From Amyelois transitella (taxonomy: Eukaryota > Arthropoda > Insecta > Lepidoptera > Pyralidae): DNA of 64,000 nt. A program made the translations under genes and the position numbers. The notes beneath the pieces were generated by a model. The model was given only the letters and a program-made list of their open reading frames with translations, had not been told where the DNA came from and searched no databases. Position 1 is the stretch's first letter. Each line of letters starts with the position of its first letter. Below, piece after piece: positions 448 through 11,581 of this stretch. The stretch lies in contig NC_083505.1 of NCBI RefSeq assembly GCF_032362555.1, positions 5,571,501 to 5,635,500 on the forward strand, in the 5' to 3' direction.

Positions 448-3400
448 CTCCCATGCCGGTGTTGTCGTCGTCGAGGTCGTGGCCGTGGTCGTAGCGAGCT
501 CGCTTCTTCGGGTCGCTGAGGATGCCGTACGCCTCGCCCACTTCCTGCAATCACAACACTCTTATCAATATTATTATTTTATACTAGCTTTTATCAGAGA
601 TATTTTACATACATACATACTTTAAATCACAATGTATTGTTGTGAATTTGATGATGTTGAATGCAAAAATGCTGCAGTGCAATTCTTTTACCGCGTCTTC
701 TGTGTGACTTTTTTGAAGCGGCACTAAAATTTTCTATTTTATGTCAACTAATATTGTGAACACAAAAGATGCGGCAATTATTGAGTGACGTTCGAAATGT
801 GTCACACTAATAATTAAAAATGAGTTTGTAATGGGAGGCCTAGACGCCGTGTGCCGTGTGGTGTGTGCCGTGCGGAGTGTGGAGTGTGGAGGCCGACCTT
901 GAAGCGGCGCTCCTGCTCGCGGCGCTCGCCGTCGGGCGCGCCGGCGTGGCGGTCGGGGTGGTGCACGAGGGCTCGCTTCCTGCAAACATTACATTCTATG
1001 TGTAACTACGTAGCGTCCCGGTACCATTTATGATTAATTTCATACATGATTTATAAATAAATAAAGTATTCTATGTGACAACTCGGTTTTTAACTATGTA
1101 TAGGTATGCTTTCCAAATTTTATACGAATTGGAATGTGTCTGTGAAAGTGTAACAGGCAAATAGACAACAGTTACTTTCGTATTTATGATATTAGTAAGA
1201 ATTCCAATGCGGCGCGTAATATATGTTCTTTTTTATTCTTTTATTTCCCTCTAAGGCAGGCGTAGTTTTACGTTTGCTATTTATATTATATACTAACTAT
1301 AGAACTTCAAAATTACCTGTAAGCCTTTTTAATGTCATCTTCCGAAGCCGTCTTATCAATTCCCAGTATTTTATAATAGTCCTTGCGCTTGGACTTCTTT
1401 AGCGCCAACTTGGCTTCCTGCAGCAGTTGTTTGTTCTCCTTGCTCTTGTCAATCTTGTACAGTCTCTCGTAATCCTTCACAGCTTCTTCGAATTCACCGA
1501 GTTCGGTGTAGCATTTAGCGCGGCGGAGTAGAGCCTAGTTATAGCAAGAACAGACAAATTTTGGTCAGTAAAATGTTAATTTCAAATGTAAAAGTCAATT
1601 AAAGGAAAGGCTAATAAACTTGGTATTTTTTTTTGGCACTACACTAGCAACTTGTTATTATTGAGTCCAGTTCCATCATTAAGCCAATAGCTGAATGTGG
1701 CCTTTCAGTCTTTTCTAGAATGCAGACTCTGTCTACCACGTAAGAGATAACGACATGCTAAAGCACAAAAATTCACTGGTTGACTGGAAGAGACCCCTTC
1801 ATAAGTCATCTTCATGGGATAAGTCCGCCATTGCAAGCAATTTATTTCTTGTATAACTACTGTGTTCTATTACTAAAAAATGTGTAAGTTTCTATGCAAT
1901 AAACAAATTCATGCCAATCTTCTATAAGCAAAATGGTGACTTACCTTTACATAGTTTTCGTCTAGTTCGAGAGCAGCAGTGCAAGCTTCAGCCGCCTCCT
2001 TGGTTTGGTTCAGCTTGGAGCAGACAGTGGCTTTGTTGAAATACAGTTTGGCATTTACAGCCTTATTGTTCTTGTCGATGTTCAATGCTTCGTTATATAA
2101 ATTAAGGGCTTGATGCCATCGTCCCATTTTGAATGCTTCATTTCCTGTAATATAATAGAATTTATTGTGTATACATTCCCACGGAACATAAATAACAATT
2201 TGTAGTTTTTTTTAACAAAGTCGTTTCTCCTGTAAGTTTCCTATGATTGATTTATTGATGATGCTTTGTCTTCATATGATAATTTAAGAAAGTTCTTTCT
2301 CAGTTTCCTTTCCCATATACTCAAGGCACACTTGAAAACGTAGTTGTAGCCTCCATATAGTTCTGTGGTGAAGTCCAATTAAGACCTACTGCCTTTTAAT
2401 ACTTTTAAGTCAAAAGATAAACAGTGCAAAGTATACCTTCTTCTTTCTTTTGTTTTAACAACTTGGCTCTTTTGTATGTCTCCATAGCTTTCTTGTGGTC
2501 GGGTGCTAGTCTCAATACTTGCTGGAAATGCTTGAATGCTTGTTCGTCCTTATCCTGAAATATATAACCATAGTTGCTATCAACTCTGTGAATCTAATTA
2601 CTTCAGTATGAATCAAAGTTTTAAATACAATTTTGCTAGCAGTAGCAGTGACTAGAGGAAGCATTGTATAATATTATAATGATTATAATTCTTATAATGT
2701 TACAACACAACACATACTTATGAGTGCTAACAAATGGTATAAATTTTCTCACCTATTAACAAACAAAATTAGGCAGTAATTATATCTTGGCACAAAAGTT
2801 CCATTACTGATGCCTATTGTTTTCTTTTTACTTATGACATTATATACGATATTCAAACAATACCTCAAAGTATAAGCAGAGCCCTCGAACATATATAGCC
2901 TCGGCATCAAGACTATCGAATCGTAAAGAATCATTTGCGATCTCTTGAGCTTCCTGACAACGCCCAAGCATAGCCAAACATTCCGCTTTTATGAGCTTCG
3001 CCCTGTACACAAATACATCATTTGACTTTATGTACAATATTGAACAGATAAAACTGACAAAATATAATACTGTTGTTCCGATATACATTGTTCCGATCTG
3101 GAAATGATGATGATAATAACCCAATCCTTGATTTACTATCAGCTACTGAGTTCATAAGTGAATCATGCGTATCATGTCGGAGATCTAAACTTAGGATAAA
3201 AAATGTTTACTGTGATGTGTCAATAGATACTGAATTAGCAAGAAGATCTTTGTAATATAAGTTAATCTTAATGCAAACTATTTCTTAATTCTCATATGAA
3301 CCTTATATTATAAACAGAAAAGGTACTTTTAATCTTGGAAGTTCTCACAGTAGTTATGTTGGGGTAATGTCCCAGCCCAAGTGTAAATCACTACATAGTA

Positions 3401-6400
3401 TAAAACAAAGCCGCTATTTTAGTCTGTTTGTCTGTATGCTTAACCCTTCGTAAGCTTTAGGCCGTATCCGGGCATGTACTAGGAATGCTTTGTTCCGGAT
3501 CCGTCCAAATGCACTCGTCGTAGTTTTTACACAAATATAATATCTAATAACAAGAAATAAGGTGTTTTATTATTTGAAATGTATTTCTAACGAATGAAGC
3601 CGTCATAGACAACTGTCAAATATGAATTTCATCCGTTCATTTAGCTAACCAAGTCATTTCAAATTGTGACTTCGTTGTGTTGCAAAGTGACTGAAGAACG
3701 TGTGAGAAAACTCGTCTTTTTTGGCTGTAATTACAAACAGGTATGTAAATGTTTTTATTTCGTTATTATATAGTTACTTTCGAAGCAATTACGTGTAAAA
3801 GTTTATAGATTTAGTAAAAAAAGAAGGATTTTAGCTTTTTCAAAAGTAGATGGAGTGTGTTACATATTTCTTTCGTGTTAGTTTATGCATTATATCCAAT
3901 ACCTCTGTAATGGATATAATTGGTTTTAGATAGTAAATTTATTATACTATTGAAATACACTAACTTTTTTACAATAAATACATGGATTTTGTAAATATCT
4001 TATATTTTTCAAGACTGAGAATCCGTTACACGCACACATACGCACTATGTCCGCCATCTTACTTGTGTCGTACACTGTCTGTGTATTGTATCGCGACGCT
4101 AATATACAGCATGCTTTCAAAAGCCTCTGTGATTTATTCATTGATTGAAACTAAATCTACGAAATTTATTTTATTGGTTTTAGTCAAAATGTCGTTTGGT
4201 TTTGATGACATGATGTCATGATAGTTGGGAGATGGTATACAGGATCTACGCTCCGGTAACTCGTATCGCGCTGTGTTTTAGCTCGTTAGTTTTGTCTCCG
4301 TGAGCACTTTCTGATGAAGTGACATCGAGGGTCTGATGATGCAGTCGGAAGGTGGTATACAGGATCTACGCTCCGGTAACTCGTATCGCGCTGTGTTTTA
4401 GCTCGTCAGTTTTGTCTCAGTGAGCACTTTCTGATGAAGTGACATCGAGGGTCTGATGATGCAGTCGGAAGGTGGTATACAGGATCTATGCTCCGGTAAC
4501 TCGTATCGCGCTGTGTTTTAGCTCGTTAGTTTTGTCTCCGTGAGCACTTTCTGATGAAGTGACATCGAGGGTCTGATGATGCAGTCGGAAGGTGGTATAC
4601 AGGATCTACGCTCCGGTAACTCGTATCGCGCTGTGTTTTAGCTCGTCAGTTTTGTCTCAGTGAGCACTTTCTGATGAAGTGACATCGAGGGTCTGATGAT
4701 GCAGTCGGAAGGTGGTATACAGTATACAGGATCTACGCTCCGGTAACTCGTATCGCGCTGTGTTTTAGCTCGTTAGTTTTGTCTCCGTGAGCACTTTCTG
4801 ATGAAGTGACATCGAGGGTCTGATGATGCAGTCGGAAGGTGGTATACAGTATACAGGATCTATGCTCCGGTAACTCGTATCGCGCTGTGTTTTAGCTCGT
4901 TAGTTTTGTCTCCGTGAGCACTTTCTGATGAAGTGACATCGAGGGTCTGATGATGCAGTCGGAAGGTGGTATACAGGATCTACGCTCCGGTAACTCGTAT
5001 CGCGCTGTGTTTTAGCTCGTTAGTTTTGTCTCCGTGAGCACTTTCTGATGACATCGATGTCTGGTTTGAATACATGCTAATAATTTTATTTTATTGACAG
5101 ATTAAAATGGAACCCCAAACCCCAAGTACTTCCAGAAGCATGTTTGTCGGCTTGGAGGTGACTAGAACTCCTCAGGGATCCCTTATTCGGGGCAGAGATG
5201 TAGTCTTGGAGACATCTGGATCAGGGAGGATTAGAGTATGTTATTTTCCAGTTTTGTTAACTTTCCCTTTTACTTTAAAAACAAAAACTGATTATTTCGT
5301 ATATTTTATTACAGCCTTGGCGGCCCCAAAATTTATCTGTGGAAGGCGAAGCCATAGAGATCGTGGATGAGTTGGTCCATGGCGGCGAAAAAGTAGCTGC
5401 TGTAAGAATGGTTTTCTTTTTTTTGATAACTTTAGTAGATGTTCAACTTTTTTTTAACTACCAAGATAATAATATGTCGAGATGTATACTAACTTATTGC
5501 TCACTTATTGATGTCTATTGTAAGGATTATCGAAACAAAATATTACCTATTATCACAACATGCAATGTTATTTACAAAATAATTATTTTTTAGGTACCAG
5601 AGGAACGTACGAAAGGTCAGCCGCGTAATCTTTTTGGCCGAGAACCTGTAAGTTTCATTTTCATAACACTCTTTGAAAGTATAAATTACTTGCATTGAGA
5701 AAGGGATTTTTATTTATTGCCGCTCTCATCGTGCACCGGACTATCTGATAGAAATCTAGTCCATCCAGTAACTAAGGTAATGTAACTAAGGGTGTTTGGT
5801 TTGTGCTTCAATAACACAATTCTGCTAAAATTGGCAATGCGGTATGAATGTATTGTAACTTCATTGATATAAAGGTGTTTGGTGTATGCTCAATAACGTA
5901 ATTCAGCGAAATTGGCAATATGGCATGAATATATTGAAAGTTAATTGAATAAAAATGAACAGGAATCTCTATTCCTGTTCATCGTTGGGATACACTAATT
6001 ATTCCTTTTTATAAAAATATTGTGGTTGGCATCTCTAACAATACCCGCTTTTGTTATGTTTGTGTGTATGCTTGCATGTGGTTTAGGGTTTGGTTTTTTT
6101 AATAGGATGAAGACATACTGGATCCTGAGCTGGCTGAAGAATTAGCCATCGACTCTGGAAGTGATGAGGATGCCGAGGAAGAATTGACTCTCGATCAGTT
6201 ACAGCAGATGTTGGAATCAGATGACGATTTTATTGAAGATGAAGTTAGTGAGGAGCCATTGACTTGGTCATCTGATTTTAACGAATTTAGAGGGGTCAGG
6301 GAGGACTTCAACGAAGAAGCTGGTCCTAAAATTGAGGGAACAAGTCCTTTAGGCTTGTTTACTCAAATTTGGGACCAGCCTCTGATGGATTCTATTGTCC

Positions 6401-9400
6401 ACGAAACGAATCATTACGCTTGGGAAACAATAACCGGTTTCTTTGAAACCGGAGACTCCATGCCAAGTAAATCTCGCATGAACGACTGGGTGGAAACTTC
6501 GGTTTCCGAACTATATAGGCTTATAGGTGTGATGATATTTATGTCAATATGTGTAAGAAGTAGGTTAGAGGAATATTGGATGACGGGTGTGATGGGTATG
6601 CCGGAGTTTCGAAAACTGATGTCAAGGGATCATTACGTAATGCTCTTAAAATTTTTGCACTTTACTGATAACAACAACATACATGTACAGGGGCGTGATA
6701 AGAAAATAGCTAAAATAAAACCTATTATAGATTATTTAAATAAAAAATTCCAGTCCATTTACGTGCCTCACAGAGAAGTATCGATAGACGAATCGTTGCT
6801 GCTTTGGAAGGGTCATTTAAGCTGGAAACAATGCATTCGTTCCAAAGCAGCTCGATTCGGTATCAAAAGTTATGAACTCTGTGAGGCCGTAACTGGATAC
6901 GTAGTAAATTTAATTTTGTATGCCGGCAAAGGCACGACAACTGCAGAAACGGTTTACGGGTTTACTACATCCACTGCCAAAATAGTCCTTGAGCTTTTCA
7001 AGAACTATTTAGGCAAGGGATATACCCTGTTCATGGACAATTTTTATAATTCTGTTCCTCTGACCCAATTTCTAAAAAAACATAAAACTGACGTAGTCGG
7101 TACTCTGAACCGTCGCCGAAAAGACACGCCCGTAGAAATCCAAAATTTGCAGGATAAAAGGATGGCTAGGGGTAGTGTGGTAAGTAGACACTGTGGTGAT
7201 GTATCCGTCATAGCATGGAAAGATGTGAAGCTTGTCACCACTGTATCTACTTACCACAAAACAGATATGGCTCCAGGGCACAGGGCTGGCCAACCCTGCT
7301 CCAAACCAGTCGTGGTCCATGAATATAATAAATACATGGGAGGCGTCGATCTCAAAGATCAAAAGCTAAGCATGTATTTATTAGAAAGAAAGAGGGGAAT
7401 CAAATGGTATATTAAAGTTTTTAGACGTCTTTTAAATATATCTATTTTAAATGCATATATTATATATTGTGCTAACATTGGCCAGCATAAAAAAATGACT
7501 CACCGCCAATTTCGTTTCAAGCTTGCTGAAGAGCTCTGCTTAGAATTCGGACAAAACGTCTCCTCACGTTCGCGCCAGGTCCCCATCCCCACCTGTAGCA
7601 GGCTGAACAGGGATTTTAATCATTTCCCTGTTCATAATGAGGTGACCGAGGAGCGAACCAAAAAACAAGATAAATTTAAGAGGGGACGTTGTGTTAGATG
7701 CAGGCAAAAATGTAACATCGCGTGCAGTCATTGCACGGTGTATATTTGTGTTGGCCAATGTTGGCTTGAGTATCATACTTTAGAAAATCTATAGTTTGTA
7801 AATTACTTCTGTAGTTACATATATATAAAATATATAATTAAATATTATCTATTTATTTATATTAGTTATATATTTATATAAAATGTGTGATGTAGTAGTC
7901 AACACACCAGACTGCTACTTCCAGGTCTCGGGTTCGATCCCCAGTCAGGTCAAGTTGGTAAATTATCTTTTTCATATTGACTTCTGATCTTGGGTGTTTA
8001 TCTATTTATGTATACATTATTTTATTTTTAAATATTAATATTAGGATTATTGTTTAAAAATACTTTTTTCTCTTTGATCCCTTCTTTCTTAGGACTGCAC
8101 TGGTTTGGTCTACGGGTTATAAGATACATAGAATGAATATACAAATAAAATAAAAAAAAAAAAAATTCAAAGCCCTTCAGGCGAGTAGGCGACCAATACT
8201 GTTGAAAAGAGTTTCTTTCGGCGTTTCTTCTCTTGCAGTGGTCGGTTACGAAGCGCTAGTAGTCTTTAGCTTTGAAAGAATTAATAATTTTAAATTTGAG
8301 TTTTGAATACATATCTATTTAATTTATCTAAATCGATAATTTTTACATGTAATTTGACGTAAAAAAGTGCCTACAAAGGCCTATTTTCTGAATAAACGTT
8401 TGAGTTTGGTTACAGTCGGCTTGAGCTCGATCGAACGCATGCGTGTTTTGAGTCCAAACATGCTTTGTTTAAAATTTAAGTTGACGTCATTTAGAGACAC
8501 TGCTGCAGTGCAGTTTGGTGCCTATTCTTCTGTTATCCTATTCTTCACTTGCGCTTCTGAATTTGTGTAAACTTTTTTGCATATGAATATTCTGCAGACT
8601 GTTTAAATAACACCCTTTTAAAACGTTGTTGTTATCAGTAAAGTGAAATGATGGGAATCTAAAATTTCGATTCCTACGCAAAATTTTTTTGTTTAATTTG
8701 AATTCATAATTCATTAAAAATAAGTATTTTTTTTTACAAAACAACCGACTTCAACACTATTCCCTATCTCAAAAATTACTGAACCGATTTTGATGAAAGT
8801 ATTTTTTTTCAATAAGTCTTTATATATTACATAGTTCTTATCATTATAGATTTATTGAAAAAAAAAACTTATCAAAAACAGTTCAGTAATTATTTTTACA
8901 AAATTGTAATTTTATTTTTATTTTTTCATTGGTAAAAATAATTCCTAGTATGTACTATGAATCATTGGTAAAAATAATTACTAGTATGTACTATGAATTG
9001 AATAGGTTTAGAGTAGTGGAAACCAATAAACATTGTACATTTTTGTATTCCAATAAAAGAAACATTTTAATCAACATTTTATTTTTATTTTTACAAGACA
9101 CTCTTTTCCAAATTACTAACGTGCACAACTAAAAACAAACATCCTGTAGATATGCCCAGATCCGACCTAAAGCAGTTAGACAAACATTGACAGTGGACGG
9201 ATACGGCCATCAGCAGTTAGGCGTTAACCACATGCCGCCATTTTGTCCAGATACGGCCATCAGCAGACAAGCAAGGCAAACAAGTCACGCACACAGACAT
9301 ACATTTTTCTAGTTTTTGGCTATGGTTTTTCGCTCATTTTCTCTAGGCAAGCTATATATGTCTGATATAAAAACGAAACTACAATTTTTCGTGTTTGCCA

Positions 9401-11581
9401 CACTGCCCTTACAGTTGAGCAAAGACAAATGTAAGTGAATGAACGAGCCAATTGAAAAAATGATAGTTTTCTAGGTAAGTTTTCAGTTTTTAGTAGAAAT
9501 ATACTATTTTAAGACATTTAGATACATTTTACTTGTTGTTTTGTGAAGCCAAATACATTATTTACGATTACAATGCCTCAAATAAATCTACATTTCAATA
9601 TTTTCATGGTAATAGAAGTATAAAGTTTGCGTTGTAGAAGTTGCAAAATGGCGAAATCGTGATTCTTACTGGATTATTTGTGAAGACGATTTTAGAGAAT
9701 TTTACTTGGGACATAATAACTTTTTGGCACCATTAAATTCCTCAATTATTGGACTTTGTGGAATAGTAAACAAAAACAGAATATATGAAAGATGTAAATT
9801 GCAAAATCAGTAAAATATTTACAATGGATAATTTTTCGGTAAGTTTTGAATTCAGTGACCTAAATATAATAAACGCAAGTGTTTTTTCGCATCAAAATTT
9901 ATTGCATATGATTCTTCATTTATATATCTTTAAAAAAAAATAAATTTTTGGGTAGGTCCCAAATAATTATATACAGATATACAACAAAATCTAAGACACT
10001 GCGCGCCCGTCCGCCGCGGCGCTTGAACGCCGCAGACGAGGTGCGCAGTTTGCGTATAGCCGCCGCAGCTGAAGGGTTAAATCTTTAAAATTACGCAACG
10101 GATTTTGATGCGGTTTTTTGTAATAGGTAGAGTGATTCAAGAGGAAGGTTTTTATATACATATAATTTTTTCCGAATTTTGCACCCGTGCGAAGCAGGGG
10201 CGGGTCGCTAGTTAATAAATAAATAATTTGACAAATACTTGGTACTAGATGGGCTGTAATCGAGACAGCGGTCCATGCAGAAGACGACGCGGCGGTAGTC
10301 CGCGGCTTCCATGGCGCGCTGCGCGTCCTCGTGCAGCCGCCGCAGCGACTCCAGTGCGCGCCGCTCGCTCGCCGCACACTCAGCGCCGCCTAGCTCGCTC
10401 GCACGGGCCACCGCTTGCTCCCCTCCGGACATGTCGCCTATAACATTCACATACATGTGCAACATGACAGTTTAAGATGTTCCCGGGAACTCCAAAAACC
10501 ATGAATGAGGCCTACTCCTCACCATCAGCGGTGCTTTGTTCCTGAGCTGAGGATAGTTTGACTGAAGAGATTCCAGCATCTCCACTTAAAAAAGCAAGAG
10601 GGCTGATGAAATGGACAAATCCAGTCACTCGGGAAAAAAGAATGACAGGTTTATGAATTTAAACTTTATTGCACAAAAAATTATGGGAAGAGTTAATGCT
10701 GCATTCTTCTTTTTCCTCTTGGTATTAATCATATTTTACCTAGTAAAGCAAGACACAAAAGAGTAGGAGGAATGTATGCCAAGATGATGGCAATTATGAC
10801 TCCCAATAAGTTTATTAGTGTGATTTAAACCTGACTTTAGTTTAGTTTTCAATATATATTTTTTTCTATTTACTGTGTTTGAAGTTGTTTTTCATACCAG
10901 AAACAAATAAGCAAAAATAGCAACATCTAAAATAATTCAACAATTAAAATAATTAATAAATAAAAAATTAGATTACTAACCCAGTGCTATACAACACTTA
11001 GCAATACGAATATAGCCTTTTGTGAATGTTGGATCGAGTGAGACTGCTTTCTGTGCATCTTCAAGGGCTTTTTTGTACATGCCCAACATCATATAGCAGG
11101 CGGACCGATTGCCATAGTAAGCAGCATTCTCTGGACATAGTTTTATTGCTTCATCATACATAGTCAGCGCACTCTTGTAATTTTTAAATTTGTACAAATG
11201 ATTGCCACTTTCTTTCTTTTCTTCTGCCAGTCTAAATAAGAAAAAAAACAAATCAATAATGACTAACTAAAAACAATTTTCCTATCATTCAGCCCACACG
11301 AGACTATGTCTTAAACCTACAAGTAGGTCAAATGTCAAGGTACTCCAATGCATGGAACAAACAATCAAGCAATCTTATAAACAATAAAGTTATTTGCAAT
11401 GTAATATCTGTATTGATAACTGAATTTATATGTTCAATTATCCATATTACAATACTAAGTACCTATCAAAGCGAAAAAACCCGAAATCAGATAAGAAATT
11501 GAAGTTAATTTACCTTTCAGGACTTTTGGGTATCAAATCTTCGATAGTTAAATCTAAATCTACGACGTCCGAATCTGCCAT
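448..11581 (-). CDS. DNAJC7: DnaJ homolog subfamily C member 7 (TPR/J-domain co-chaperone), 3' end missing
   Basis: Cytosolic co-chaperone that links Hsp70 and Hsp90. It has arrays of tetratricopeptide repeats followed by a J domain. Nine exons were read on the minus strand: 11514-11581 (start codon), 10981-11231, 10239-10437, 2864-3002, 2437-2554, 1945-2144, 1317-1534, 898-979 and 448-544. All have GT-AG borders and matching phases, giving about 457 residues so far. TPR units are plain in exons 2 and 4-7, for example a [20 protein letters not shown] motif. The J domain starts at [11 protein letters not shown] in exon 7, carries the HPD motif (VHHPDRH) in exon 8 and continues with [16 protein letters not shown] in exon 9. 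The Phe/Gly-rich tail usual for the family would follow and is outside the window. Intron 3 (3003-10238) holds an entire piggyBac element on the other strand. One donor (after 898) reads GTCGGC, which is weak. Identification is firm; the missing end is inference. Confidence 0.93.
4231..5055. repeat. Seven-copy 120-bp tandem repeat inside the piggyBac element
   Basis: Units start at 4231, 4351, 4471, 4591, 4711, 4839 and 4967. The first four are exactly 120 bp. Units 5 and 6 are 128 bp because of the same 8-bp insertion near their start (ATACAGTATACAGG). Unit 7 is cut short at about 5055. Copies are nearly identical. Units 2 and 4 share CGTCAG and CTCAG variants where the others read CGTTAG and CTCCG, so units 1-2 and 3-4 form a 240-bp dimer. 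The array sits between a good splice donor at about 3740 (CAG-GTATGT) and an acceptor at 5100 (TTGACAG), so it probably lies in the intron of the transposase 5' UTR. Confidence 0.9.
5107..7794 (+). CDS. piggyBac-family transposase, four coding exons, intact
   Basis: Cut-and-paste transposase of the piggyBac DDE family, expected to act in the nucleus on TTAA sites. The coding exons are 5107-5235, 5315-5401, 5594-5647 and 6106-7794. All introns are GT-AG in phase 0, giving 652 residues with no stop or frameshift. The N-terminal 120 residues are short, acidic and low-complexity. The catalytic core keeps D318 (VSIDES), D401 (LFMDNFYNS) and D505 plus D508 (MGGVDLKDQ), with spacings of 83 and 104 close to those of canonical piggyBac. 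The tail has a cysteine- and histidine-rich domain (C619, C622, C626, C630, C633, C638, C642, H647) of the type that binds the transposon ends. The start is the first ATG after an acceptor at 5100. Most piggyBac transposases are encoded by one uninterrupted frame, so three short phase-0 introns are notable. The flanking terminal repeats favour a live or recently live element over a domesticated gene. Confidence 0.9.
5955..5982. repeat. Perfect 12-bp hairpin in transposase intron
   Basis: ATGAACAGGAAT and its exact reverse complement are separated by the four bases CTCT, inside the third coding intron (5648-6105). Just upstream, about 5788-5935, two diverged tandem copies of a roughly 85-bp unit each start with GGTGTTTGGT. 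No function is evident. Confidence 0.8.
7885..8160 (+). repeat. tRNA-derived SINE nested in the piggyBac element
   Basis: The 5' part contains a pol III B-box-like GGTTCGATCCC (7930-7940) preceded by an A-box-like TGTAGTAGTCAACACA block at the correct distance. The body is AT-rich and ends in an A-rich tail at about 8140-8165. It follows the transposase stop codon and so postdates the element or travels with it. Confidence 0.65.
8745..9000. repeat. AT-rich nested repeat and 35-bp direct duplication
   Basis: Positions about 8745-8905 include an ACCGACTTCAACACTATTCC segment and an ACTGAACCGATTTTGATGAA segment, a wording common to degraded moth transposons. It is followed by two nearly identical 35-bp copies (8929-8963 and 8964-8998) starting CATTGGTAAAAATAATT. 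No coding potential. Confidence 0.5.

Follow-up and report, generated by a model that had tools for sequence, protein, structure and literature searches.

piggyBac itself is about 2.5 kb long, has no introns and carries longer terminal repeats than the element described here. The original prediction for our locus held that most piggyBac-family elements are intronless and 2.3–3 kb long. This is fair for beetles, whose piggyBac elements are described as 2074–3465 bp long with a single ORF, many of them young (PMC12732532), but it has an exception in Pokey of Daphnia (PMC3849761). The transposase gene of Pokey has one intron, with splicing shown by RT-PCR, and repeats are described upstream of the transposase (PMC3849761). 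Pokey is the closest published parallel that we found: as described, it is mobile, targets TTAA, has a transposase intron and carries length-variable upstream repeats (PMC3849761, PMC4912750). Another piggyBac-type gene with introns is PGBD5, in which the introns are reported within the transposase domain, unlike nearly all other piggyBac genes (PMC3902484). As far as these two sources go, piggyBac introns are treated either as a mark of domestication or as rare exceptions (PMC3902484, PMC3849761). Among the open-licence PMC papers listed as matches, no title or start of an abstract mentions a mobile insect piggyBac element with three transposase introns.

Here we analyse a window of 64,000 nucleotides of Amyelois transitella (C1:5571501-5635500) within a 327-Mb assembly of 33 contigs, which was also the genome searched. 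We observed in it what is very probably an autonomous cut-and-paste transposon of the piggyBac superfamily, caught in a very recent expansion. Its likeness to Pokey is one of described features. Pokey is described with one intron, whereas three are predicted here; and Pokey targets a site in 28S rDNA, whereas this element lies scattered over about 30 sites whose flanks differ (PMC3849761, PMC4912750). Were its gene spliced and the element active, we would have here a mobile piggyBac element whose transposase gene contains several introns.

Structure of the element and its insertion site

The complete element occupies positions 3440-10080 of the window on the forward strand (6641 bp including both TTAA sites). 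Both ends had been placed at TTAA duplications, and this holds: TTAA is present at 3440-3443 and 10077-10080, and the same edges recur in 31 genomic copies, all 31 with TTAA on both sides, the target-site duplication of the piggyBac superfamily. The terminal inverted repeats begin with CCC, as in that superfamily, and are perfect over 6 bp only: CCCTTC at the 5' end (3440-3449 with its TTAA) and GAAGGG at the 3' end (10071-10080 with its TTAA).

Further inside, the motif GGCCGTATC at 3460 has two inverted counterparts, GATACGGCC, roughly 0.8 kb short of the 3' end of the element (at 9200 and 9250), and may have a role in transposase binding. Between the first 400 and the last 1050 bases there are 11 inverted 9-mer matches against a shuffle mean of 4.3, so single matches merit little weight. 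The motifs at 9200 and 9250 had hinted at a 3' end at a TTAA near 9226; this candidate was ruled out, as the 31 copies continue to 10080. The two inner motif copies lie in a long 3' non-coding part (7795-10070), in which we found no convincing second gene. A hairpin at the 3' end of the element is weak (z -1.74; 12 of 200 shuffles equally good), and a 9-base end pattern proved unusably common in a genome search, with control matches outnumbering real ones. ARAGORN reported no tRNA within the element, and the single RNA-gene match there is far under the cut-off of its family and was taken as chance.

To look for the empty site, we joined the flanks of the element at a single TTAA (254 nt) and searched the same genome. 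All 40 places scored (the best 40 of 1753 candidates) match across the junction, with 93–97% identity, so the flanks formed one dispersed repeat before the insertion. The element is thus inserted into a copy of a dispersed repeat, with duplication of TTAA.

Predicted gene structure

We searched for a gene model by dynamic programming over ATG starts, GT donors and AG acceptors, using the codon usage of exon 4 and leaving the number of introns free. The model consists of exactly four forward-strand exons, at 5107-5235 (43 codons from the ATG), 5315-5401 (29 codons), 5594-5647 (18 codons) and 6106-7794 (562 codons and the stop), with a score of 37.9; its splice matrices hold approximate values for insects, and its codon model was trained on exon 4. 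The predicted introns (5236-5314, 5402-5593 and 5648-6105) are all in phase 0, so that the original prediction of three phase-0 introns stands in number and phase, with edges about one base off. A further intron is predicted in the 5'UTR, at 3741-5100, and would hold a minisatellite; its donor at 3741 scores 4.71 and its acceptor, just before 5101, scores 1.2.

The alternative is that exons 1–3 are a chance pattern and that the transposase is an unspliced product of 528 a.a., translated from the first ATG within exon 4, which corresponds to residue 125 of the spliced protein. It would agree with the position of the DDE domain, which is entirely within exon 4, with the modest scores of the single splice sites (donors 0.2, 0.9 and 2.6, acceptors 1.0, -1.2 and -0.5 for introns 1–3), and with exons 1–3 having no homologue at E<=1 outside the 31-copy family in the same genome, which leaves the N-terminus without homology support. 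However, it was the unconstrained model that selected exactly these exons, and none of 300 dinucleotide shuffles scored as well (mean 10.3, maximum 30.1). GC content also falls from 0.50–0.53 in exons 1–3 to 0.23–0.33 in introns 1–3, and the spliced length of 652 a.a. is near that of the 658-a.a. frame of the nearest relative. We therefore consider an unspliced transposase unlikely and keep the spliced gene as the preferred model.

The transposase

The 652-codon frame reads through as had been claimed, with aspartates at residues 318, 401, 505 and 508. Residues 170-541 match the PFAM family DDE_Tnp_1_7 (PF13843; E=2.2e-88, 297.4 bits against a cut-off of 22.4), and the protein has the DDD catalytic residues of piggyBac-superfamily transposases. 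This domain is uninterrupted: exon 4 encodes all of it together with the putative C-terminal Cys-rich region, and its protein is identical in the 31 copies. The introns interrupt nothing beyond the first 90 codons, which makes them less surprising than introns inside a catalytic domain. Among solved structures, sequence comparison finds piggyBat (PDB 9c0f, E 9.2e-50) and piggyBac (6x67, E 1.2e-33), whose catalytic aspartates line up with those of our protein; both belong to the same transposase fold family by sequence, but are distant. The C-terminal Cys/His region aligns with the C-terminus of piggyBat, with no separate zinc-ribbon PFAM match at E 0.01.

Genomic copies and probable recent expansion

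Exon 4 was used as a protein query (77 matches scored of 424 candidates): 31 matches are 100% identical over 562 a.a. without a stop, and the next best has 43% identity. A search with the element ends, which had been proposed as a check, agrees with this. The 3' query (971 bases) matches 31 places, and the 5' query (731 bases) matches 32, that is, 30 copies from the TTAA inwards plus two separate parts of one C14 copy. By their end coordinates 19 copies are 6641 bp long, four are within one base of that length and eight differ (e.g. the C14 copy, of about 7.96 kb). Flanks differ between copies right outside the TTAA, save for one pair on C19, which gives about 30 independent insertions. The C19 copies (C19:5788029-5794669 and C19:5808757-5815397) are 20.7 kb apart with identical flanks and probably stem either from a recent duplication of this region or from the assembly itself.

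Divergence from the window copy was measured outside the minisatellite array in 21 5' ends, 30 middle pieces and 30 pieces of the next 1.25 kb; the copy on C6 entered this comparison by its edges only. With the window's own copy counted, full-length perfect matches were found for 21 of 21, 27 of 30 and 28 of 30 pieces, respectively. Across 136,976 bp the other copies show one clear substitution, and at most two mismatches. The substitution is a G-to-A change in the copy at C3:3259927. The copy at C30:1899297 has a 454-bp deletion, with its sole apparent mismatch in overlap at the deletion junction; the copy at C2:5347575 has a deletion of about 1.2 kb, and the one at C30:3148417 carries an insertion. 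Over the final 961 bases, the bit scores of three of the 31 copies fall short of those of perfect matches, so a few further changes exist there. The mutation rate in butterflies is near 3e-9 per site per generation, and with this rate the divergence points to a family age in the thousands of generations, perhaps as many as ten thousand.

It is these 31 near-identical copies, at about 30 TTAA sites and with a single clear substitution in the pieces compared, from which we read a very recent expansion, and they lend strong support to the earlier suggestion of a potentially mobile lineage. Near identity alone cannot separate a recent burst from an old resident family kept uniform by gene conversion. 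Conversion would, however, have to homogenise 6.6 kb across many contigs, at about 30 sites whose flanks differ, and to leave no diverged member or fragment to be seen; we regard it as very improbable. Spread by segmental duplication, or an artefact of assembly, is less probable still: it would fit the C19 pair with identical flanks (starts 5794669 and 5815397), but the flanks of the other 29 copies differ immediately outside the TTAA. Domestication as a host gene is brought to mind by the introns, since piggyBac genes that have introns, PGBD5 for example, are described as domesticated (PMC3902484). PGBD5 differs in being a single-copy gene that has not recently multiplied and whose introns are inside the transposase domain. 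A co-opted gene would be expected as a single copy with decaying ends, whereas here 31 copies have intact mobile ends; the suggestion that the element was being co-opted is thus not borne out, and we give domestication a negligible chance.

Returning to the recent expansion of a mobile element, neither the exon-4 protein search nor the end searches of the genome revealed decayed or diverged copies or fragments. Beyond the family, stretch 7795-9120 of the 3' non-coding part finds no more than short matches, at 76–88% identity (best 40 of 354 candidates). As no diverged copy was seen, the family probably arrived recently from outside, most simply by horizontal transfer from another species. A protein search of contigs in viral and prokaryote records returned no relative. 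Published work describes piggyBac elements spreading horizontally among Lepidoptera (PMC4016481, PMC5704228).

Under the model that we prefer, splicing would remove the three phase-0 coding introns and a single intron in the 5'UTR from the transposase mRNA, and the transposase would cut the element out at TTAA and insert it at another TTAA. Copy number would rise through template repair of the donor sites. The intronic minisatellite could change its number of units during such repair or by unequal exchange, and later jumps would then carry the altered arrays. Splicing gates mobility in the P element of Drosophila, and by analogy germline splicing here might yield the 652-a.a. transposase, while unspliced message might yield the 528-a.a. 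exon-4 form, which keeps the catalytic core without the N-terminus, as a possible repressor; the minisatellite might then be a regulatory array, rebuilt in repair and passed on by jumps. We put this forward as a speculation with rather little chance of being right. The near-zero divergence makes this family a candidate for one that is still moving, and it may offer both a way of tracking an invasion by insertion polymorphism and a test of whether splicing controls a piggyBac element.

Variation of the minisatellite

The minisatellite (4233-5051, forward strand) has 6.7 copies of 120/127-bp units. By inspection of the matches listed for a 240-base query, the array matches only inside the 31 copies, and we rejected its capture from host DNA for want of a match outside the family among them; the repeats of Pokey, in contrast, are described as deriving from the rDNA spacer (PMC3849761, PMC4912750). 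We examined 20 copies with the 5' locus; all their units belong to the five types seen in the common array. The unit order is A-B-C-D-E-C in 15 of the 20. Two copies on different contigs (C22:2199215 and C30:3148417) have a common expanded order, A-B-C-D-E-C-A, and three further copies have other, longer orders. By length, the same five copies are the only expanded ones among the 31. The order common to two copies points to a jump that carried an altered array with it, and two independent events are possible as well. Where point mutations are too scarce, such array variants can mark lineages.

The copy with the 1.2-kb deletion on C2 has lost part of the array. One copy lacks exons 1–3 through a deletion that holds about a dozen filler bases resembling nearby sequence, which would fit the expectation for interrupted template repair.

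Relatives in the same genome

The nearest relative found (among the 77 of 424 candidates scored) is a family in the same genome with 43% identity, encoded by one 658-a.a. open frame without introns, as opposed to the three introns predicted here. In the phylogeny that had been proposed for the DDE core, we placed exon 4 with eleven relatives from the same genome and fragments of piggyBat and piggyBac. This 14-row tree pairs exon 4 with the 43% family (support 96/95); given unequal row lengths and some long branches, its deeper branching order is uncertain. Other piggyBac families of the genome have long open frames in copies of equal score (e.g. C1:13167307-13168944 and C1:1638739-1639917). 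Equal-score groups include one of four copies at 43% and one of five copies at 29% identity to the query, and the genome may hold several young piggyBac families.

Neighbouring and nested sequences

Two minus-strand open frames, at 2840-3142 and 10208-10471, flank the element. They look like exons of one TPR/DNAJC7-like gene, in which case the element would sit in an intron; for DNAJC7 no support came from PFAM (both frames) or from PDB (2840-3142 only). Within the 3' non-coding part, positions 7880-8180 contain a tRNA-like stretch, in which ARAGORN calls no tRNA, and an A-rich tail, and by eye resemble an old SINE piece.

Some young copies have themselves received insertions. The copy on C14 has in its 5' part an insertion of about 1.3 kb adjoining a TA (C14:5199933-5201480), mariner-like by eye. 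Another young copy contains a retrotransposon at C30:3154080-3158490 with an unbroken 1323-a.a. frame, assigned to the copia type from a reading of its protein and not by a family search. As it is nested in a very young copy, this retrotransposon too must have moved recently.
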